Source: Flectobacillus sp. BAB-3569 (GTDB lineage Bacteria > Bacteroidota > Bacteroidia > Cytophagales > Spirosomataceae). Taken from it: a DNA stretch of 64,000 nucleotides. The stretch spans positions 1 to 64,000 of the forward strand of contig NZ_NJFZ01000007.1 of NCBI RefSeq assembly GCF_002270355.1. The letters run 5' to 3'. Position 1 is the first letter of the stretch, and the number at the start of each line of letters is the position of its first letter. Under the pieces are notes generated by a model, which was not told the origin of the DNA, ran no database searches, and saw nothing but the letters and a program-made list of their open reading frames with translations. The translations under genes were made by a program, and so were the position numbers. Positions 9,019 to 22,854 of the stretch are shown piece by piece.

Positions 9019-10128
9019 TTAATTGATTCTTAGTCTTCGTCCAATCTTCAATTTTGTTGATGAACTCATCCCATTTAGCTTTGTAAGCTGTTGTATTGAA
9101 ATATTAGCAAAGTTGGCAATAGATGCCAAAGTATCTCCTTCGCGAATCGTTACCCATGTTGTGGTACGATATTCTTCTTCATTTTCTACATTTTCATTAA
9201 ACTCATTGGGTAAAATTTCCCCATAAGTATCAAATACCCTTGCCGAAATCATGACATGTTGATCAACAGGCTTGGTATTTTTTCCTGAAAATGAAAACAC
9301 ATAGGTTGGGTTAAAAGCCTTTCCTTCGTAACGGGTTTCATAATGAAGGTGCGACCCCGTACTTCTTCCTGTATTCCCCCCTTTTCCGATGACATCACCA
9401 GCCTTGACATAAGTACCCGACTCTAAAAACTTCTGTGATAGGTGACCATAAAGCGTCTCCAAACCATTATAATGCCTTACTACCAAGTATTTCCCATAAC
9501 CTCTCCCATCGTATCCTGACACCCTTACAATCCCATCGAAAGTAGAATATACAGGGTCGCCAATATTCAAATCTAAGTCCACTCCCGCATGCAAGCGACG
9601 CCAACGTGGACCAAAATTGGAGGTAATGTCTCCAGAGTTCAAAGGAGATGACCAATGATATCCCATCGCATCATTATACAATTCGATGTCAACGACACCT
9701 TCAAAGTTTTTGACATTAATTCCATAAGGATCAATATTTTTGGAAGACCAAATCGAATAATACGTTGCCACCATAGCCACATCATCTGAACCATTGATTT
9801 TAACAGTTTCTATTACCTCGACTGGACGAATATCTCCTTCATCCACCGACGTTGTGTCAAAGGCACTTACCGTAGCATTGATTGCACGGATAGGCTCATA
9901 TCGATTGCGTGAGCCGTCGGTAACACTTTGTTGAGCAGAGGTTTCGTATTCGGGTTTGAGCTGTAAAGGAGGAAGGAATTCTTCTTGTTTGGTAGTTTTA
10001 GCGGGTGCAGTTACAGTCTGTTTATTGATTTTTGTCTGTTTTTTGTAACGTCCATTCTCATTTTGAGCCAAAGATTTGACTTGACAAAAACCGAGCAATA
10101 CCAAAGACAATACTATTACTTTTTTCAT
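9019..10128 (-). CDS. M23 metallopeptidase with C-terminal LysM (copy 1)
   Basis: 369 residues from the ATG at 10128, chosen because MKKVIVLSLVLLGFCQVKSLAQ is a clean signal peptide; the frame is open further upstream. A basic, poorly conserved N-terminal region is followed by a lysostaphin-type M23 domain: RLHAGVDLD (about 177-185, zinc His and Asp), GYGKYLVVRHYNGLETLYGHL, and HLHYETR (about 260) with the other His. A LysM peptidoglycan-binding module (GDTLASIANFANISIQQLTKLN) ends the protein. Probable periplasmic murein endopeptidase. Its neighbour at 10390-11508 has the same architecture. Confidence 0.93.
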   Translation of the reverse strand: MKKVIVLSLVLLGFCQVKSLAQNENGRYKKQTKINKQTVTAPAKTTKQEEFLPPLQLKPEYETSAQQSVTDGSRNRYEPIRAINATVSAFDTTSVDEGDIRPVEVIETVKINGSDDVAMVATYYSIWSSKNIDPYGINVKNFEGVVDIELYNDAMGYHWSSPLNSGDITSNFGPRWRRLHAGVDLDLNIGDPVYSTFDGIVRVSGYDGRGYGKYLVVRHYNGLETLYGHLSQKFLESGTYVKAGDVIGKGGNTGRSTGSHLHYETRYEGKAFNPTYVFSFSGKNTKPVDQHVMISARVFDTYGEILPNEFNENVENEEEYRTTTWVTIREGDTLASIANFANISIQQLTKLNGMSSSTKLKIGRRLRIN

Positions 10129-10328
10129 AAAAATTAACTCTAGGGTCTGATTTCCAATAAATTGCTCACAAATCAGCAAGCTTTTTCTGATAAACAATTC
10201 TTTGTTTTCAATTAGTGATATACAAGTAAAACCAGAATAAAAGAGTTTTAGTATTTGGTCTAAGGAAATCTTAATGAAAAAAGGTCGAGAGGTAAAAGTA
10301 AAGAAATACTAGATTCTCCGAAAACAAA

Positions 10329-10359
10329 AAGCGAGACTACCCGATGGGTAATTTCGCTT
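10329..10359 (-). terminator. Stem-loop terminator after the upstream M23 gene
   Basis: AAGCGAGACTACCC and GGGTAATTTCGCTT pair with a 3-base loop (one mismatch, one G-U). On the minus strand the stem is followed by TTTTTGTTTTC. It separates the two M23 genes. Confidence 0.7.
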
Positions 10360-10389
10360 CTATACTAGAAATTAATAATATCTTTTTGT

Positions 10390-11508
10390 CTAATGAATAC
10401 GCAAACGGCGACCTGCACGCAAGTTTGAGCTTAACTTCATTCCATTCATTTTTGCTAAACGTTCTACCGAAATACCAGCACGGTTAGCAATAGAGTAAAG
10501 CGTATCACCCGAGCGAGCTACAGTCCATGCAGTACGGCGAGTAACAACTTTGTTACCAGCATCGCCATATTCGTTACCCAAAGCCAAGCCATAAGTATCA
10601 AATACACGCGCCGAAACCAACAAGTGGTCAGACACTGGCTGAGTGCCTTCGCCTGCAAAGTTCATCACATATGTAGGATTGAAAGGGTTACCTTCGTAAC
10701 GTGTTTCGAAGTGCAAGTGTGAACCTGTACTACGACCTGTATTACCTCCTTTTCCGATTTCGTCTCCTGCTTTTACAAACATTCCTGACTCATAACCTTT
10801 GCGTGAAAGGTGACCATAGAGTGTTTCTAAACCGTTGTAATGTCTTACTACCAAGAAGTTTCCGTAACCACCACCATCGTAGCCAGATACCCTTACGATA
10901 CCATCAAATGCCGAATAAACAGGGTCTCCCGTTTCGAGGTCTACGTCTACACCTGCGTGCAAACGACCCCAACGTGGGCCAAACTGAGAGGTCAATTTTG
11001 GTGCATTGGTAGGGGCACTCCAATAACGCCCTTGCTCTTTATTAAAAAGCTCAAGGTCAACTACATCATCAAAATCTTTGACATCGATTCCATAAGGGTC
11101 AATAGTGTTGGTATCCCAAATAGAAAAATAAGAAGCAACCGTTACAAAGTCGTCACTTCCTGAAGGTTTCATCTCCTCCTCTATCTCTATCACTAAAGGC
11201 TCTCTTTCGTCAATTGATGTAGTATCAAATGCACTTACAGTAGCGTTAACTTCTCTCACAGGTTCAAATTTTTGACTTCCCGCCGTGGTAGTAGCTTGTT
11301 TTTCTACTACTTCAAATTCATTTCTGAATTGAAGTTTGGGCATTTCATCAAGCAAATCGTCCTGCTTTTTTTCTTTTTCCTTGTAAAGTCCAGTATTGTC
11401 CTTGATTTTAATTTTAGGATTGTTTTTAAAACTACCCTTCTCTTGCGACCAAGCCACCATAGCTGTACATACAAAAAATGCAGTAAGAAAATTACTTCTT
11501 ATATTCAT
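10390..11508 (-). CDS. M23 metallopeptidase with C-terminal LysM (copy 2)
   Basis: 372 residues, paralogue of the preceding gene on the same strand. Signal peptide MNIRSNFLTAFFVCTAMVAWS. Shared landmarks in the same order: EPVREVNATVSAFDTTSIDE (about 80-100), SIWDTNTIDPYGIDVKDF, the M23 zinc site RLHAGVDVD (about 181), HYNGLETLYGHLSRKG, HLHFETR (about 263), and a LysM (GDTLYSIANRAGISVERLAK). All catalytic residues appear intact, so it is expected to cut peptidoglycan cross-links. The conserved pre-catalytic stretch shared by both copies suggests recent duplication. It has its own terminator. Confidence 0.93.
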   Translation of the reverse strand: MNIRSNFLTAFFVCTAMVAWSQEKGSFKNNPKIKIKDNTGLYKEKEKKQDDLLDEMPKLQFRNEFEVVEKQATTTAGSQKFEPVREVNATVSAFDTTSIDEREPLVIEIEEEMKPSGSDDFVTVASYFSIWDTNTIDPYGIDVKDFDDVVDLELFNKEQGRYWSAPTNAPKLTSQFGPRWGRLHAGVDVDLETGDPVYSAFDGIVRVSGYDGGGYGNFLVVRHYNGLETLYGHLSRKGYESGMFVKAGDEIGKGGNTGRSTGSHLHFETRYEGNPFNPTYVMNFAGEGTQPVSDHLLVSARVFDTYGLALGNEYGDAGNKVVTRRTAWTVARSGDTLYSIANRAGISVERLAKMNGMKLSSNLRAGRRLRIH

Positions 11509-15284: not shown

Positions 15285-16253
15285 ATGCTAAAAAATTCAT
15301 GGTTAATCCTCCTTATTTTGATTACAGGAGCTTGTAAGTTGGAAGACCAACTTGTTTATCCTGAATTAACGATAAGGCCCAATTGGATTGTAACCGACTA
15401 TAATGCCACCATAACAGCTGAATTTGTCAGCTTAGGAAATGCGTCCATTAATGTCTATGGGATGTGCTGGAACAAGACTGGAGAGCCCACTACACGTGAC
15501 TCCTTGATAAGTTATTCGGGGCAACCATTGATAGAAGTATTTTCGAGTAGCTTGAGTAATTTATCGCCTGCTACCACCTATTATGTACGTGCATTTTCAA
15601 GAATTGGGCTAAAAACTTCTTACTCAAATCAAATAACGCTCAAGACATTACCCATTCAATTACCCAATGTATCTACAGGCAGTGCCTCCGATGAAGGGAT
15701 AGGGACCTTAAATGTTCAAGGGACACTCAACCTACAAGGCGCTTCTGTTGTTACTGAATATGGACATTGCTGGGGGCTTTCAACACCTACCATAAACAAT
15801 CAGCGTACCATTCTTACGTCTACCCTATCTCAAGGAAATTTTACTAGTCAACTTCGTGGTTTGAGTAACAATACTAAGTATGTCATTCGAGCGTATGCAA
15901 AAAATGCCACAGGAGTATCCTACGGAAATGAAATAACTTATATAACGTCTTGTAAATCAGCACCAACAGTCGTATCTAATATCATTGATAATATTTCGGC
16001 ACAAGGAGCGATAGCCAACGGGACTATTTCTAATATTGGTTGTTCGGAAGTAACAGAATATGGGCATTGTTGGAGTACTACTCCCAACCCTACTACTGCC
16101 AATCCTCGAACCATATTTAAACAAGGCTCTGCTGGAGCGTTTAGCAGTGCGTTGTCGGGCTTAAGTTCAAAAACAGCTTATTATGTTCGAGCATATGCCA
16201 TTAATTCCCAAGGAATTAGTTATGGCAACCAAGTATCAATTATTACGCTTTAA
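15285..16253 (+). CDS. Lipoprotein with three FN3/Ig-like repeats, first gene of the EPS cluster
   Basis: 322 residues from the ATG at 15285, chosen because MLKNSWLILLILITGAC is a lipoprotein signal with the acylated Cys at residue 17; the frame opens 17 codons earlier. The rest is three tandem repeats of about 90 residues, each with E(Y/G)G.CW....P..... and ending T.YYVRAYA.N..G.SYGN.I, a pattern common in secreted Bacteroidota proteins. Probably anchored in the outer membrane. The stop overlaps the next start (TAATG), so translation is coupled to the polymerase-like gene. Function unknown; a role in surface polysaccharide attachment or export is only suggested by position. Confidence 0.8.
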   Translation: MLKNSWLILLILITGACKLEDQLVYPELTIRPNWIVTDYNATITAEFVSLGNASINVYGMCWNKTGEPTTRDSLISYSGQPLIEVFSSSLSNLSPATTYYVRAFSRIGLKTSYSNQITLKTLPIQLPNVSTGSASDEGIGTLNVQGTLNLQGASVVTEYGHCWGLSTPTINNQRTILTSTLSQGNFTSQLRGLSNNTKYVIRAYAKNATGVSYGNEITYITSCKSAPTVVSNIIDNISAQGAIANGTISNIGCSEVTEYGHCWSTTPNPTTANPRTIFKQGSAGAFSSALSGLSSKTAYYVRAYAINSQGISYGNQVSIITL

Positions 16254-17689
16254 TGGGAGTTACAACTAAACAAATTTTATATTTATCAGGGATAATTTTT
16301 AGCGGTATTATTCTTGGGATATTTGTTGCCAAAACCCAAATTATGGGAGCAGCAACCATTATTGCTTTACCCTTTGTAATTGGATATTTGATTGCCATTT
16401 TTCGTAATCCAGTTTTGGGGGTTTATACAGTATTAGTTTTTTCATTTTTTGTAAATGGCGTAGGAAGATACGCCAATGCAGGCCCTTTGGGGCTTTCTGT
16501 TGACGTTTTTTTGGTAATAGCCCTATTAGCAGAGTTCTTTAAAGGATTTGAAGGTGATCCTTGGCCTGACATGAAGCGCAACCCTATTCTGATTGCGATT
16601 TATGTATGGGGAGCCTATTGTATGCTAGAGTTTTTCAACCCAGAAGCTAGAAGTAAGGAGGCGTGGTTTTATGCGATGCGTGCGGTGATTTTGTACCTAA
16701 TTCTGATAGTTGTTTTAGGAATCGTACTTATGCGCACAGAAAAGCATTTGGACCGAGTATTAAAAATCTGGATGATAGCTTCTTGTATAGCAACGTTATG
16801 GGGCGCTCGACAGCTTTTTGTAGGCCTTGACCGCTTTGAACAAGCTTGGATGGACTCAGGCAATGCTACCACACATATGTTGTTTGGGAAGTTAAGAGTT
16901 TTTTCTTTTTACTCTGATGCGGGGCAATATGGTGCAGCCATGGGACATATAGGATTGATTTGTATTTTATTAAGTCTTTCTCCCTTTGGCAATCGAAACT
17001 TCAAGCTTTTTTACCTCACAGGAGGATTATTCTGTTTGTGGGGGATGTCCATCTCAGGTACACGAGGGGCACTATTTGTGGTTATGGGGGGCTTTATGGC
17101 ATATTTGGGAATGTCCAGAAACTACAAAATGCTAGTAATTGGAGGAATCGCAGCCGTAATGTTTTTTGGGATGCTCAAGTTTACCAAAATTGGGCAGAGT
17201 AATTACCAAATCAACCGTATGCGCACAGGGCTTGACCCAAATGACCCTTCGTTGCAGTTACGCTTGATTAATCAGGCAAAACTAAGAGGATATCTTGCAT
17301 CCAGACCCATTGGCGGTGGTATTGGGTCAGCAGGTTTTTGGGGGACACGTTTTTCTCCTGGAACATTCCTAGCAGTAACCGCCCTAGATAGTTGGTATGT
17401 CAAAATTTGGGCAGAATGTGGTGTAGTTGGACTTTATGTGCATATTGGAATGTTACTCACCTTTATGATTTATTTCGGATTAAAGCTCTGGAAAATCCCC
17501 CCCTGTCTGTTACGAGACAAATTGGTGGCACTATACAGTGGTATGTTCGGTATCTTGGTAGCTTGTTATGGCAACCAAATCCTTGGGCAACTGCCTACCA
17601 ATGTGGCAATATATTTGAGTATCTCGTTTTTGTATGTTTTTACTAAAGATGAATATTATGAGCAAGCAGTTGACACTACTAATCGTTGA
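16253..17689 (+). CDS. O-antigen ligase/polymerase family protein (Wzy/WaaL-like)
   Basis: 478 residues, about ten or eleven hydrophobic segments (for example ILYLSGIIFSGIILGIFVAK, VLGVYTVLVFSFFVNGVG, AVILYLILIVVLGIVLM). A large loop between late helices contains RMRTGLDPNDPSLQLRLINQ and RPIGGGIGSAGFWG, matching the Wzy_C/O-antigen ligase pattern (Arg followed by GGGxG before an LDSWYVKIWAECG helix). Expected to polymerise or ligate repeat units on the periplasmic face. Translationally coupled to the lipoprotein upstream and overlapping the receiver gene downstream. Polymerase versus ligase cannot be decided from sequence. Confidence 0.88.
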   Translation: MGVTTKQILYLSGIIFSGIILGIFVAKTQIMGAATIIALPFVIGYLIAIFRNPVLGVYTVLVFSFFVNGVGRYANAGPLGLSVDVFLVIALLAEFFKGFEGDPWPDMKRNPILIAIYVWGAYCMLEFFNPEARSKEAWFYAMRAVILYLILIVVLGIVLMRTEKHLDRVLKIWMIASCIATLWGARQLFVGLDRFEQAWMDSGNATTHMLFGKLRVFSFYSDAGQYGAAMGHIGLICILLSLSPFGNRNFKLFYLTGGLFCLWGMSISGTRGALFVVMGGFMAYLGMSRNYKMLVIGGIAAVMFFGMLKFTKIGQSNYQINRMRTGLDPNDPSLQLRLINQAKLRGYLASRPIGGGIGSAGFWGTRFSPGTFLAVTALDSWYVKIWAECGVVGLYVHIGMLLTFMIYFGLKLWKIPPCLLRDKLVALYSGMFGILVACYGNQILGQLPTNVAIYLSISFLYVFTKDEYYEQAVDTTNR

Positions 17690-18044
17690 TGACGAACAAA
17701 GCACACGCATTGTATTGGAGCATTTTCTTAAGAAAGACTTCAATGTAGTGGTAAAAGGTGACGGTATGGAGGCACTTTCTTTACTTGAAGGAGGATTTGA
17801 TATAGACTTTATCATAGCTGATTTGAATATGCCTAACCTCAGTGGAAAAGAATTTTTGAAAATTCTTAGGGCAAGTAATCTTTTTGGGCAAATCCCAGTC
17901 ATCATCCTTTCGGGTACCGACGAAAGTAAAGAGCGCATCGATTGTCTGAATATTGGAGCAGACGACTTTATGCTAAAACCTTTCAACCCGATGGAAGTAC
18001 AAGCCAAAATTAGAGCAATTATGCGACGAGTGCAGCCTTTGTAA
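17658..18044 (+). CDS. Stand-alone response-regulator receiver protein
   Basis: 128 residues from the ATG at 17658 (MSKQLTLLIVDDEQ); earlier in-frame starts at 17634 and 17649 are possible. Only a receiver domain: acidic pair D11/D12, phospho-acceptor D55 in FIIADLNMPNLSG, the Ser/Thr switch in VIILSGTDES, and the conserved Lys in MLKPFNPMEV. No output domain. It overlaps the end of the polymerase-like gene by 32 bases and precedes the pseudo-receiver sugar transferase, so it is probably part of the operon. A CheY/Spo0F-like role in a relay is inferred. Confidence 0.9.
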   Translation: MSKQLTLLIVDDEQSTRIVLEHFLKKDFNVVVKGDGMEALSLLEGGFDIDFIIADLNMPNLSGKEFLKILRASNLFGQIPVIILSGTDESKERIDCLNIGADDFMLKPFNPMEVQAKIRAIMRRVQPL

Positions 18045-18112
18045 GAACATAGTCTTTCGGCATTATATTTCCAAAAACCACATTATGCTAACCCACCGAC
18101 TTTATATTTGAT

Positions 18113-19291
18113 ATGGAAAATTATGAATATACCCCTCCACAAAAAAAAATATTTCTTGTGGAAAATGATTCAAACGTTGTAGTTAATTTCCTTAAAAAAT
18201 TCGGACAAGACATTCAAGTACAAGTACTTGGCTCATCCGACGAAGCCTTAGAGTTACTCAAAACCAGTTATTCTCCAGATGCCGTTATTATTAGCAAATA
18301 TCTAGGAGGACTAAAGTTTTTAGAACAGGTTCGTGATAATGCTTGGACGAAGGCTTTACCTGTTATCATCACCTCAGCCGACCTAAATCAAGGTCTTATC
18401 AAGGAAGTACTCGCCAAAAAAGGAGATGATGTTTTTACCAGTACATTTGATAAAGGAGACCTTTTGGTGCGCTTAGATTATTTTGTACGCCGACGTCATT
18501 ATGTGGCTATGCAACAAACTAAATCCAATGTACTTGACGTAAAAATTCCTTGGTGGAAACGTGCCTTTGACGTAATTTCTACAGGAACAGCTATTTTGTT
18601 GCTTTCGCCTTTATTAATAATTGTTGCTATTTTGATAAAATTAGACTCGAAAGGCCCTATTGTTTACAAGTCTAAGCGTGTGGGTGCAGGGTATCGGATT
18701 TTTGATCTATACAAATTTAGAACCATGCGAACAGATGCCGATCAACTCATCAAAAACATGGGTGACTTGAATATGTATTCTAAAGAAAAGCCTTCAGAAA
18801 ATACGAGCGATGGCTTGTGTGAAGCTTGCCGTATCAAAGGCGTCAAATGTGAGCAGTCTATGTATTTGGATGGTAAAAGCATTTGCGAGAAGCAATATTT
18901 ACAAGAAAAAAATAGCAAAGTTGCTTTTATGAAGTTTCAAAATGACCCTCGCATTACTCGCTTAGGTAAGTTTTTGAGAAATACGAGTATCGACGAACTA
19001 CCGCAGTTGTTCAACATCTTTACAGGTGACATTTCACTGGTGGGTAATAGACCTTTACCCTTGTACGAAGCCGAAAAGTTGACAACAGACGACTATATCT
19101 ATCGCTTTGCAGGCCCGGGTGGCTTGACGGGGCTTTGGCAAGTAACCAAAAGAGGAAAAGGCAAAACGGATATGACTGAAGAAGAAAGAATTCAATTGGA
19201 TATAGAATATGCCAAAAACTTTTCTTTCAAAATGGACTTAATGATTATCCTGAAGACCTTCCCTGCATTATTACAATCTGAGAATGTCTGA
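18113..19291 (+). CDS. Pseudo-receiver fused to undecaprenyl-phosphate sugar transferase
   Basis: 392 residues in two parts. Residues 11-130 follow a receiver fold (KIFLVENDSNVVV; SPDAVIISKYLGG; LPVIITSADL), but the phospho-Asp position is Ser61, so it cannot be phosphorylated in the normal way. From about 145 it is a bacterial sugar transferase (WWKRAFDVISTGTAILLLSP with one membrane helix, KSKRVGAGYRIFDLYKFRTM, TSIDELPQLFNIFTGDISLV, GLTGLWQVTKRGKGK), which primes exopolysaccharide synthesis by moving a sugar phosphate to undecaprenyl phosphate. An insert carries C236, C239, C246 and C258 (Cx2Cx6Cx11C), a possible metal site; similar inserts are remembered from other Bacteroidota transferases. 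Substrate unknown. Confidence 0.92.
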   Translation: MENYEYTPPQKKIFLVENDSNVVVNFLKKFGQDIQVQVLGSSDEALELLKTSYSPDAVIISKYLGGLKFLEQVRDNAWTKALPVIITSADLNQGLIKEVLAKKGDDVFTSTFDKGDLLVRLDYFVRRRHYVAMQQTKSNVLDVKIPWWKRAFDVISTGTAILLLSPLLIIVAILIKLDSKGPIVYKSKRVGAGYRIFDLYKFRTMRTDADQLIKNMGDLNMYSKEKPSENTSDGLCEACRIKGVKCEQSMYLDGKSICEKQYLQEKNSKVAFMKFQNDPRITRLGKFLRNTSIDELPQLFNIFTGDISLVGNRPLPLYEAEKLTTDDYIYRFAGPGGLTGLWQVTKRGKGKTDMTEEERIQLDIEYAKNFSFKMDLMIILKTFPALLQSENV

Positions 19292-19455: not shown

Positions 19456-19477
19456 AAGTACTAATTTGGAATATATT

Positions 19478-20218
19478 ATGATTAATATAAAACTTACTTT
19501 GTTGAAAACTTGGTCAATTGCTCTGAGTGTGTGCTGTCTACTACTTTTCAGCCATAGGGATATATTTGCTCAAGCTTCAACACCTAAATCGCCTGAAACA
19601 GATTTTCAATTGCCTCCACTTGATGAGATAATAGAGTTGGCTATTCAGTATTCACCTGCCCTAAAGCAGCAAGAGCAAATTATCAACAAAGCTAACCAAC
19701 AATTGATGGTTCAGAAAAAATCTTGGACAAGTGGTATTAGCTTAGGAACGAGTTATTCAGCAGGAAATCAATCGCTTTTGGTACAACAAGCCACAGGGAA
19801 TTTGGAAGCTTTTTCCAATTATAACAACGGTTATCGACTGTCGCTTGGTGCAGCATTTTCGATTAATACGATTATTACGCAGAAAAATATTACCAAAATT
19901 GCAAAAGCCGATAAACAAATTGCCATAGAATCTAAACAGCTAACAATTGACCAAATCAAGAACGATGTAATAGCCAAATACTATGCAGTAGCAGGTGCTC
20001 ATGAAGCGCTCAAAATCGCAATTGAGATGAAAACATCATCATTGGTCAACAAAAAAATGGCAGAACGTGAATTCTCTGAAGGACAAATCAATGTGGCAGA
20101 TATGGCTAGAATCCTTGAGTCGACATCGAGTGCAGCTGTAGGTTATGAAAATGCCAAACAAACTTTTATCATGAATGTAAGGCTATTAGAGGTATTGATA
20201 GGTAAAAGACTATTTTAA
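19478..20218 (+). CDS. Half-length TolC-like outer membrane efflux protein
   Basis: 246 residues from the ATG at 19478 (a TTG lies four codons earlier). MINIKLTLLKTWSIALSVCCLLLFSHRDIFAQ is a signal peptide (written here in two parts: the hydrophobic core is SIALSVCCLLLF). Then LPPLDEIIELAIQYSPALKQQEQIINKA is the first helix of an OEP/TolC repeat, followed by a beta segment SLGTSYSAGNQ..., and two long alpha-helical runs. TolC proteins are about 450 residues with two OEP repeats; this has one. It may assemble as a hexamer or be a partner of the Wzc-like protein 6 bases downstream. It replaces the Wza gene expected in such clusters, which is not seen. Confidence 0.8.
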   Translation: MINIKLTLLKTWSIALSVCCLLLFSHRDIFAQASTPKSPETDFQLPPLDEIIELAIQYSPALKQQEQIINKANQQLMVQKKSWTSGISLGTSYSAGNQSLLVQQATGNLEAFSNYNNGYRLSLGAAFSINTIITQKNITKIAKADKQIAIESKQLTIDQIKNDVIAKYYAVAGAHEALKIAIEMKTSSLVNKKMAEREFSEGQINVADMARILESTSSAAVGYENAKQTFIMNVRLLEVLIGKRLF

Positions 20219-20223
20219 AAATT

Positions 20224-22854
20224 ATGAGTTTGATTCGCTTTGTTCGGTTGTTAATTGAGTTCAAGTGGTTGGTAATTCTTCTACCAATTACACTTGCGGC
20301 TACGGTTTTTCGACTAACGAAAAATGAAGTACGAGAATATACAGCCAATTCTCTTTTGTATACAGGTTTGGCATCGGGTTATAATATCGAATCTAGTGGT
20401 GCTACCAAAATCGACAACGTAACAGTAAGCAACGCTTTCGATAACCTATTCAATACCATGAAGTCTAAAAGCTCCATGGAAGAGGTAGGATTGCGCCTAC
20501 TTGCACAACATATTATGCTCACAAAGCCCGACTCGGCAGTGGCAAGCAAGTATACTTTTGGTAAACTCAGAGAGGTTCTTTCTGAAAAAGAAATTCGTGC
20601 TCTCGCTGATTCTACCTACGAAAAAACCTTGCAAAATGTGTACGACGACATCATTAAGCCCGAAAGCAAAATAGCCAAAGTCTTAATGGGTGCCGAAAAA
20701 GGTATTTATTCTGGTCCTGGTATTTTATCGCGTTTTAGCGTCAATCGCCAAAACAATAGTGATATGGTTCAAATTTCGTACTCGGCCAGCGACCCTGCGG
20801 TTGTCAAGAAAACTCTGGAACTTATTACGCATGTGGTCATTGGTAAATACAAACAAATCAAAATTCATGAAACGGGCAATGTTGTGGCTTATTTTGAAGA
20901 GCAACTTCGTAATGTCAGTGCCAAATTAAAGAACTCCGAAGACAAGCTTACTAATTTTTCAAGCCAAAATCGTATCATCAACTACTACGAGCAAACCAAA
21001 ATGGTCACCGTAAAAGATGGTGATTTAGAAGAGCGTATTCAAGCATTAATCTCTGAAATAGAATCAAATAGAGCTGTTTTAAGAGACTTAGAAAACAAAA
21101 TTGGATTCAAGGATGACCTTGTAGCAAAAAGCAAAAAGTTTGCTTCTCTACGAGATTCTATCAATTTCTACACGACAAGATTGACCTTGATGGAGTTTGA
21201 AAGTAAACCTCGCGAACAAGAAATTGCCCAAGTAAGAGAACGCCTCAATCAGCTCGAAAACAAGTTTAAAAGTAATGTGATCGAGTATTATGAACTGAGC
21301 AATACCAAAACAGGTATCCCTGCAAAAATGTACTTCTCCGAATGGATTAATGCTACTATTTCTATTGATAAAAGCCAAGCTAGACTTTTGATTTTAAAGG
21401 ATATTAAACATGAATATGATTTAAAATACGATCGTTTTGCTCCGCTTGGTTCAACCGTTAGTCGTTACGAAAGAGAAATTGGTGTTATTGAAAAAGAATA
21501 TCTAAGCATCTTAGGAAGCTTGAATCTGAGTAAAATTAGAGAACAAAACCTTATGATGTCTATCAACCTACGAGTGATAGACCCTCCTATTTACCCAACC
21601 AAAGCCGAACCATCCAAACGTTCAACCTTGATTGTGGCGGCATTTATGGCTGGATTAATCCTAGTTATTGTTTCGATTATTGGTCGAGAGTTTTTGGACA
21701 ATTCCCTCAAACATCCCGTTAAGGCAGAAAAAGAAATTGGCGTTCCGTTTGTAGGTGCTTTACCGCTGGTAGATCCACAAAAACATAATATTTTGTTCAA
21801 TGTCATTGAAACTTACACGCTCAATCAATGTATTTCGAGACTAAAAAGGCTCAATGGCGACAATATCAAAATCCCCAAACTTGTGCTCCTTTGTAGTACT
21901 CGAAAAGGCGAAGGCAAAAGCTACTTCATCAGTAAACTATGTTCAAAACTGAATGAAAGTGGCGCCAAGTCGGTTTGGCTCAATCCTCATAATTATGCCG
22001 ATGGAGATTTTGCATACGCCTACACACTGAGAGGTAATTTTGCAAGTACCACCTCTCTAAACGATGTGGACATTACCGATACTTTTGACGATTGTGAATA
22101 TATCTTTTTCGAATTGCCTCCGCTTATTAGTCATCCAATTCCTGTGGGGCTGGTCAAACAAGCTGCTTTTACCTTGATTTTGGCTGACTCCACCCGTGTG
22201 TGGGATAGTGCCGATCAATATGTATTTCAAACCTATACCGAAAACACCCAAAACCCGATTGGTTTACTGCTCAATAAGGTAAAACATGATTTCTTGGAAG
22301 GTATTATTGGAGAAATTCCGAAAGTGCGCTCTTGGTTTAGAAGAAAATTCAAGGATTTACTCATCAAACGTCATCAAAGCAAACGTACTAATGTCAAATT
22401 GAAGTACGAAATGCTCAAGAAGGAAGAAGAAAGTGCTTGGTTTACAGAAAATGGACTGACTGATTTTGTAGAAACACGTGTCGAGATACCTGATGCTGTT
22501 AATAGACAATCTAGAATCAAAGCCGAGAAAGGCAAAAGCTTGGGCTATTATCGCGTATTACAAAAACGCCGCTATCGTTGGATAAAAATCGCTGCGGGGT
22601 TAGGTACTATGGGGTTTGTGGGTATTTGCGCCTTGTATTTATTTTGGAAAACTACTCCAGAATCTCAATACGAAAAATTCACCGACTTTGTAGTAGGCAA
22701 TCAAGTCGACTCATTGGCGAAAGTAAGAAGCACCAGACTGGTTCCGAATTTGGATTCGATTATTATTGACCCATCACAGTTAGAGTCCATTCCTGATTCG
22801 GTACGCCATGATTCGGTCAAAACGCTTATTCGTCAGAAAGAAATTCAACCGTAA
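20224..22854 (+). CDS. Wzc-like polysaccharide co-polymerase with degenerate kinase domain
   Basis: 876 residues. First membrane helix at about 13-32 (WLVILLPITLAATVF), a periplasmic Wzz-type region with long coiled coil (about 210-440), second helix at about 465-485, then a cytoplasmic P-loop domain: Walker A STRKGEGKS (558-566). The Walker A' Asp of BY-kinases is replaced (VWLNPHNYAD) and the Walker B position reads FFELPPL rather than an Asp-containing motif. Unusually there is a third helix (about 785-805, IAAGLGTMGFVGICALYLFW) and a short C-terminal tail without a Tyr cluster. It probably controls chain length or export; kinase activity is doubtful. It follows the TolC-like gene by five bases. 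Confidence 0.85.
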   Translation: MSLIRFVRLLIEFKWLVILLPITLAATVFRLTKNEVREYTANSLLYTGLASGYNIESSGATKIDNVTVSNAFDNLFNTMKSKSSMEEVGLRLLAQHIMLTKPDSAVASKYTFGKLREVLSEKEIRALADSTYEKTLQNVYDDIIKPESKIAKVLMGAEKGIYSGPGILSRFSVNRQNNSDMVQISYSASDPAVVKKTLELITHVVIGKYKQIKIHETGNVVAYFEEQLRNVSAKLKNSEDKLTNFSSQNRIINYYEQTKMVTVKDGDLEERIQALISEIESNRAVLRDLENKIGFKDDLVAKSKKFASLRDSINFYTTRLTLMEFESKPREQEIAQVRERLNQLENKFKSNVIEYYELSNTKTGIPAKMYFSEWINATISIDKSQARLLILKDIKHEYDLKYDRFAPLGSTVSRYEREIGVIEKEYLSILGSLNLSKIREQNLMMSINLRVIDPPIYPTKAEPSKRSTLIVAAFMAGLILVIVSIIGREFLDNSLKHPVKAEKEIGVPFVGALPLVDPQKHNILFNVIETYTLNQCISRLKRLNGDNIKIPKLVLLCSTRKGEGKSYFISKLCSKLNESGAKSVWLNPHNYADGDFAYAYTLRGNFASTTSLNDVDITDTFDDCEYIFFELPPLISHPIPVGLVKQAAFTLILADSTRVWDSADQYVFQTYTENTQNPIGLLLNKVKHDFLEGIIGEIPKVRSWFRRKFKDLLIKRHQSKRTNVKLKYEMLKKEEESAWFTENGLTDFVETRVEIPDAVNRQSRIKAEKGKSLGYYRVLQKRRYRWIKIAAGLGTMGFVGICALYLFWKTTPESQYEKFTDFVVGNQVDSLAKVRSTRLVPNLDSIIIDPSQLESIPDSVRHDSVKTLIRQKEIQP

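Follow-up and report, generated by a model that had tools for sequence, protein, structure and literature searches.

A lone receiver paired with a pseudo-receiver–phosphoglycosyl transferase fusion in Flectobacillus and other Bacteroidota

Receiver control of the priming step of polysaccharide synthesis is already published for myxobacteria: in Myxococcus xanthus, phosphorylated EpsW activates the phosphoglycosyl transferase (PGT) EpsZ, according to passages of PMC12802240 (mBio 2025), which also credit O'Toole et al. 2021 with reporting small PGTs that bear regulatory domains, among them receivers. In PleD of Caulobacter, phosphorylation changes the contacts between a receiver and a pseudo-receiver and leads to dimerisation and activity, as set out in sections of a 2025 perspective (PMC12632262) in which the switching of bacterial pseudo-receivers is called a mystery. 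The stretch analysed here, 64,000 nucleotides of Flectobacillus sp. BAB-3569 (contig NZ_NJFZ01000007.1, positions 1 to 64,000; hereafter the window), holds a gene for a lone receiver and, just downstream, one for a small PGT predicted to carry a pseudo-receiver at its N terminus. This small-PGT/pseudo-receiver version of receiver control, together with its spread, is the new part. The genes and domains concerned are as follows.

17658..18044, + strand: lone receiver (single-domain response regulator), 128 amino acids (aa); its start lies within the 3' end of the upstream gene
18113..19291, + strand: pseudo-receiver–PGT fusion, 392 aa, starting 68 bp past the lone receiver gene
18143..18499, + strand: predicted pseudo-receiver domain, aa 11–129, with E17, N18, S61, S88 and S110 at the active-site positions and D106 and R120 kept
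18557..19273, + strand: predicted small monotopic PGT catalytic domain (Bac_transf), aa 149–387
18818..18886, + strand: four-cysteine insertion in the PGT catalytic domain (C236, C239, C246, C258; C-x2-C-x6-C-x11-C)

The lone receiver, which matches Pfam Response_reg at E 9.9e-24, is a stand-alone protein of 128 residues with the catalytic quintet intact (D11, D12, D55, S85 and K107, aligned by eye), and so is a single-domain response regulator. In the fusion protein, Pfam finds Bac_transf (PF02397) at residues 149–387 (E 9.8e-57), the top Foldseek match of everything outside the N-domain is the small PGT PglC (8g1n), and D153-x12-P166 and D294-E295, invariant among 24 aligned relatives, correspond to the D-x12-P and Asp-Glu motifs of small PGTs in the sections of PMC12802240 that treat them; the protein is a predicted small monotopic PGT. 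Its N terminus matches Response_reg at residues 19–121 with an E of 7.6e-5, below the Pfam cut-off. An AlphaFold2 model shows residues 11–129 as alternating strands and helices, in blocks with mean pLDDT of 83–93, and Foldseek aligns this domain with the solved receivers 8fk2 (TM by target 0.85, rmsd 2.1 Å) and 3t6k (0.84, 2.3 Å). The second acid (N18), the phosphorylated aspartate (S61) and the lysine (S110) have been lost, a larger loss than the first-pass annotation, which named the aspartate, had noted. A receiver fold without its key catalytic residues is predicted to be a pseudo-receiver, and the first-pass annotation, which had placed the two genes here on the plus strand with an intact D55 in one and a serine at residue 61 of the other, was correct on these points. 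Identity of the domain with the CoA-binding/DUF region of large PGTs was considered and rejected, since Pfam (E up to 0.1) gave only Bac_transf and Response_reg and the fold is that of a receiver.

Unlike EpsZ, which belongs to the large PGTs and combines an N-terminal membrane helix bundle with a cytoplasmic DUF that lacks the β-hairpin, the PGT of the window is small, and its N-domain has a receiver fold; only about 140 aa precede the catalytic domain, and neither Pfam nor the model shows an N-terminal helix bundle. The likeness to PleD is one of arrangement, with an intact receiver and a pseudo-receiver ahead of an output enzyme, and the top curated receiver match of the pseudo-receiver is the second domain of PleD (positions 153–279, E 2.2e-7, far under the model's cut-off). 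PleD, however, joins receiver, pseudo-receiver and GGDEF in one chain, whereas the system of the window consists of two polypeptides with a PGT as output. A heterodimer of two atypical response regulators is formed by WhiI and BldM of Streptomyces (described in part of PMC12632262), but there the output is gene expression. The main text of PMC12802240 contains no match for Bacteroid-, Flavobacter- or Cytophag-, and no description of the Bacteroidota pair was found among the matches listed by literature searches, which leave out most subscription papers. The arrangement may be viewed as a split PleD whose first receiver has been placed on a separate polypeptide. It is probable that the two genes form one regulatory unit in which the receiver docks on the pseudo-receiver and controls the PGT; each detail of that model is less secure than the whole.

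The evidence for a unit begins with co-occurrence. A contig scan of species genomes, outside which the window's own genome may fall, gave 60 loci with relatives, the nearest, by protein, being one recorded as Cellulophaga sp. BC115SP (96%) and Flectobacillus longus (94%). Of these loci, 55 have a lone receiver immediately upstream in the same orientation, with overlapping ends in a few; the other five are L084, cut by a contig end, and L087–L090, in which the receiver is fused to the PGT. In the first set of relatives (L004–L032) the upstream receiver is present in 27 of 29, the misses being L017 (cut) and L030 (fused), and that of L032 is weak and degenerate. A broader sample came from a profile search of 392 Bacteroidota genomes. 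With a threshold of E 1e-50, 47 of them contained the family, at least five of these also in the first set; 49 listed genes of this phylum draw were examined, the window's own gene excluded. The N-terminal domain is present in 37 of the 49 PGTs, and 36 of the 37, from 10 families, have a lone receiver upstream, at gaps within 70 bp in 33 cases and of 119, 125 and 241 bp in the others. Among the short PGTs that lack the domain only 4 of 12 have one (Fisher p 9e-6, uncorrected for relatedness). The comparison genes were 40 control sugar-transferase (Bac_transf) genes, hand-picked before their upstream genes were viewed. They were taken singly from 40 relatives of this genome, low in the match list, and not from the phylum draw; a receiver within 400 bp upstream or inside the gene was found in none of the 40. 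Because upstream receivers accompany 36 of 37 N-domain PGTs and no control, coincidental pairing is very unlikely.

The pair also persists where its surroundings change. The layout of 20 of the 60 long loci shows it kept even without its Wzy/OEP/Wzc neighbours or with only distant counterparts of them. In Flectobacillus-like loci, Rhabdobacter, Telluribacter and Emticicia sp. CRIBPO it has Wzy-like genes on one side and OEP/Wzc genes on the other; Arcicella, Pseudarcicella and two further Emticicia lack these genes next to the pair, and in Dyadobacter and Arundinibacter it is followed only by distant Wzc-like (~20% identical) and Wzy-like (~26–31%) genes. The sole exception among these 20 is the two Lacihabitans loci, which have a fused receiver. 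The two genes appear to have been co-transferred as a pair rather than dragged along with operon neighbours. Many lone receivers have distant targets, and the receiver could on that ground be supposed to control something else, such as transcription or motility, its position reflecting operon inheritance only. Such an explanation is highly unlikely in view of the persistence of the pair while other operon genes change, the lack of an upstream receiver in all 40 controls and the existence of direct fusions.

Nine records of a plasmid collection matched, and all four of those examined carry the pair. Three (Bacteroides finegoldii, Parabacteroides distasonis and a Flammeovirgaceae plasmid) have the annotations 'response regulator' and 'sugar transferase' in that order; the fourth, a Phocaeicola record without annotation, has the same two frames. 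The B. finegoldii 'plasmid' (L258) also contains trp biosynthesis genes and may be a piece of chromosome. A plasmid search at the DNA level gave nothing useful.

In L087–L090 (two Lacihabitans, a metagenome-assembled genome named Leadbetterella and another named Bacteroidetes bacterium) and in L030, of the same family, an intact, full-site receiver heads the PGT and no lone receiver is adjacent. These fused receivers match lone receivers best, at 101–109 bits, against 39–51 for pseudo-receivers and 67–70 for other receivers. A tree of 157 receivers, for which the tool warns of few columns, puts them among the lone receivers, with the long-branched L032 as neighbour, and separates them from the ordinary receivers (95/90); all 60 pseudo-receivers fall on one side of a branch (98/98). 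Bit scores and tree alike led to rejection of the view that the full-site homologues are reactivated pseudo-receivers. Replacement of the pseudo-receiver by a fused relative of the lone receiver implies that a partner of the same kind can sit in cis, the adaptor then being missing.

The same fusions bear on a different explanation, in which the catalytic domain is the direct target of the lone receiver and the pseudo-receiver is only a spacer or a PGT–PGT dimerisation module. It would accommodate both a receiver joined straight to the PGT and the four short PGTs that pair with a receiver and have no pseudo-receiver, and it finds a parallel in EpsW, which is modelled, in a portion of PMC12802240, as contacting EpsZ at its DUF as well as at its catalytic domain. 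We consider it rather improbable, however, since the receiver favours PGTs with the N-domain so strongly (36 of 37 against 4 of 12) and since the distances among pseudo-receivers and among lone receivers correlate beyond what the PGT accounts for: with PGT distances removed, the partial r is 0.35 (p 2e-4, 5000 permutations) for 42 loci thinned by PGT distance. The pairing of short PGTs with a receiver alone suggests an older direct receiver–PGT contact, with the pseudo-receiver later added or lost.

How the pseudo-receiver might be engaged is indicated by what it has kept. In the family alignment of 79 rows (identical proteins counted once, L088 representing L087) the column of the phosphorylated aspartate holds H in 36, S in 15, D in 9, G and N in 7 each, A in 2 and Q in 1, with 2 gaps. 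The full quintet stands at the PGT N terminus in 4 of 77 scorable rows (L088, L089, L090 and L030), all intact fusions. Among 33 further N-domains from the phylum draw, a set that leaves out L094–L097 (genomes already in the family alignment) and N-domains below 100 aa, an aspartate occupies this column in 8, a full site occurs in none, and an acid and a base at the positions of D106 and R120 are retained in 29; alignment of the most diverged N-domains is uncertain. The first-pass annotation had named homologues with an aspartate at position 61 as evidence that would tell against it. They do exist, 9 in the 77 family rows and 8 in the 33, but the aspartate belongs to a full site only in the four fusions, which resemble the lone receiver.

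Of the 121 positions of the pseudo-receiver, none is better conserved than D106 and R120, each retained in 29 of 30 representatives, whereas the five active-site positions rank 50–116, counted from zero. The representatives were thinned at 70% identity and taken without the intact-fusion rows and without L084, L032, L031 and L017, whose N-domains are cut, missing or very diverged. A control set of 40 ordinary receivers, of which this genome supplied 27, keeps D12, D55 and K107 throughout (40 of 40) but the acid/base pair in 24, so that the conservation pattern of the pseudo-receivers is reversed relative to that of ordinary receivers. By offset from the conserved lysine, D106 and R120 are equated with D101 and R115 of PhoB, the PhoB numbering being our own count by that offset. 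According to passages of PMC4511772, the RegX3 paper, the PhoB substitution R115D impairs both DNA binding and activity, a defect partly rescued by D101R; these passages also describe a similar Asp-Arg pair as stabilising β5 and α5; contacts between Arg115 and Asp101 occur in the MtrA dimer (in the part of PMC10609481 that describes it). The suggestion in the first-pass annotation that receiver and pseudo-receiver dimerise is therefore plausible at the level of sequence, the acid/base pair at the PhoB D101/R115 positions being the most conserved feature of the pseudo-receiver.

Conservation also speaks to the proposal that the pseudo-receiver is a ligand sensor, for example of a cyclic dinucleotide, and the receiver an independent regulator. 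There is a precedent in the Caulobacter kinase ShkA, whose pseudo-receiver binds c-di-GMP according to passages of PMC7010744. Yet conservation is comparatively low in the former active-site pocket, and a sensor would leave the near-constant adjacent receiver unexplained; we think this proposal very unlikely.

The lone receivers have retained the full quintet in 65 of 70 family rows and in 34 of 40 from the phylum draw. A pair of the PhoB K91/E111 type is present on the lone receiver in 71 of 71 family rows, compared with 9 of 40 control receivers. In one branch of lone receivers (L024, L025, L026, L029 and L141) a glutamate replaces the phosphorylated aspartate and the remaining site is intact, a natural phospho-mimic. 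The genome of the window has a second, unlinked copy of the lone receiver (L173:9968-10393, G000:C83), 52% identical and degenerate, in which Gln replaces the second acid and Glu the phosphorylated Asp. It is present in 3 of 4 genomes of the genus, in a search that included the own genome, and has L176 and L177 as relatives in the receiver tree. This paralogue could possibly compete with the lone receiver; titration of receiver against pseudo-receiver, also raised in the first-pass annotation, has found no support apart from it. An antisense frame of 158 aa is open across the lone receiver gene (17531-18007, - strand); such frames seem to recur in several relatives and are probably by-products of codon use.

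Some lineages have genes close to the pair that could provide the input. One example is L245, where a kinase bearing a receiver and an Hpt domain (HK-REC-Hpt), the lone receiver and the PGT lie in a row, with gaps of 17 and 19 bp; L247 repeats the domains and the order, and L246 the order, with a kinase 77% identical to that of L245 (assigned by identity, not Pfam). All three loci belong to one genus. No more than a few kb separate FIST and kinase genes from the PGT in L036, where the FIST gene is 0.4 kb from the receiver, and in L037, L043, L045, L087–L090, L250 and L251. In L250 the FIST gene and a PAS-HK-REC-Hpt kinase lie opposite the pair, and in L252 an HNOBA-PAS kinase with Hpt is near it. 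Upstream of the PGT of L251, which comes from the genome of L106, kinase, FIST, HNOBA-kinase and H-NOX genes form a run headed by a 137-aa receiver ~4.9 kb from the PGT. A crude look at L248, L249, L253 and L254, four of ten stretches, recognised no hybrid kinase.

The genome of the window has one FIST gene, on a different contig from the pair. It forms a set (L256:3245-9626, G000:C1) with two kinases, one HK-REC and one PAS-HK-REC-Hpt; identities of the neighbouring kinases to their Arcicella counterparts are 57% and 67%. The Hpt-bearing hybrid lies at L256:3245-6163 and the FIST-linked kinase at L256:6961-8490. The FIST/kinase set is unlinked in this genome but near the receiver–PGT pair in sister genera. 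Passages of PMC12570481 describe NosP-type FIST proteins as heme-binding sensors of nitric oxide (NO), and NO as an input to the pair is a lead suggested by gene neighbourhood.

These observations can be assembled into a model. A histidine kinase relay would phosphorylate the lone receiver on D55, and the phosphorylated receiver would then dock on the pseudo-receiver, probably through the α4–β5–α5 face used by PhoB-type receivers. Docking would alter the oligomeric state or the position of the PGT, and so switch the transfer of sugar 1-phosphate to undecaprenyl phosphate. By analogy with EpsW and EpsZ, the switch would most likely be to the on state. Direct signalling control of the first step, as the first-pass annotation had put it, is well supported by the co-occurrence, the natural fusions, the kinase neighbours in some lineages and the precedent in the consulted portion of PMC12802240. 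A more far-reaching statement is offered tentatively, as possible but doubtful: that throughout the Bacteroidota, from freshwater Flectobacillus to gut Bacteroides, a FIST/H-NOX gas/redox kinase relay may charge the receiver of a split-PleD switch and set polysaccharide synthesis post-translationally at its first committed step.

Several findings weigh against the docking model. One PGT with the N-domain, L106, has no adjacent lone receiver, and the short PGTs L104, L112, L116 and L117 have a lone receiver and no pseudo-receiver, so the receiver may act without one. Phosphorylation is not universal, since 6 of the 40 lone receivers of the phylum draw lack a full site and Glu takes the place of D55 in four of the family set. 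The acid/base pair is present in 24 of the 40 ordinary receivers; it may therefore stabilise the fold and is not unique to dimers. Of the 40 lone receivers of the phylum draw, only 22 keep the K91/E111-type pair and 21 the D101/R115-type pair, which makes the docking face uncertain and counts against a single fixed interface across the phylum. A kinase is near the pair in only 12 of the 60 long loci and FIST in 8, most loci having neither, and the Pfam scan, which covered part of the window's open reading frames, found no kinase among the genes scanned. Overall pTM of the single-chain models is low at 0.41 for the fusion protein of the window and 0.48 for the L087 fusion, in which domain packing is not settled by the model. 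Finally, small PGTs are described as functional monomers in a passage of PMC12802240, and dimerisation may for that reason not be the mechanism here.

The four-cysteine motif of the PGT, possibly a metal or redox site, is present in 73 of 79 family rows but, counted by motif, in 18 of 49 genes of the phylum draw. It was set aside as a part of the switch, because it is not tied to the N-domain and receiver (13 of the 36 draw genes with both). The intact fusions do not have it. Around the pair, the window contains the following genes.

16253..17689, + strand: polytopic membrane protein, O-antigen ligase/polymerase-like by eye and by place, with no Pfam match above cut-off; overlaps the start of the receiver gene
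19466..20218, + strand: TolC-type outer membrane protein, half-length (250 aa), with a single OEP match, beside the Wzc-like gene
20224..22854, + strand: Wzc-like chain-length/co-polymerase protein, its curated matches below their cut-offs

The TolC-type single-OEP protein, which recurs in other loci of the same kind, might stand in for a Wza-type exporter. Farther away, at 9019-11508, two adjacent paralogous genes appear by eye to encode M23 peptidase-like proteins with a LysM-like end. A scan for promoters and terminators gave 17 promoter-like sites against 19.2 expected by chance.

Three annotated records call these genes no more than 'response regulator' and 'sugar transferase'. The pair, with a degenerate receiver fold on the priming enzyme, points to a direct on/off switch for slime production. 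It supplies natural receiver/pseudo-receiver pairs across a phylum, with an enzymatic output that can be assayed, and the natural fusions, the lineages with Glu for Asp and the versions free of a pseudo-receiver are ready-made comparisons. Receiver control of polysaccharide priming is likely to extend from the myxobacteria to the small-PGT type in Bacteroidota, members of the gut flora included.

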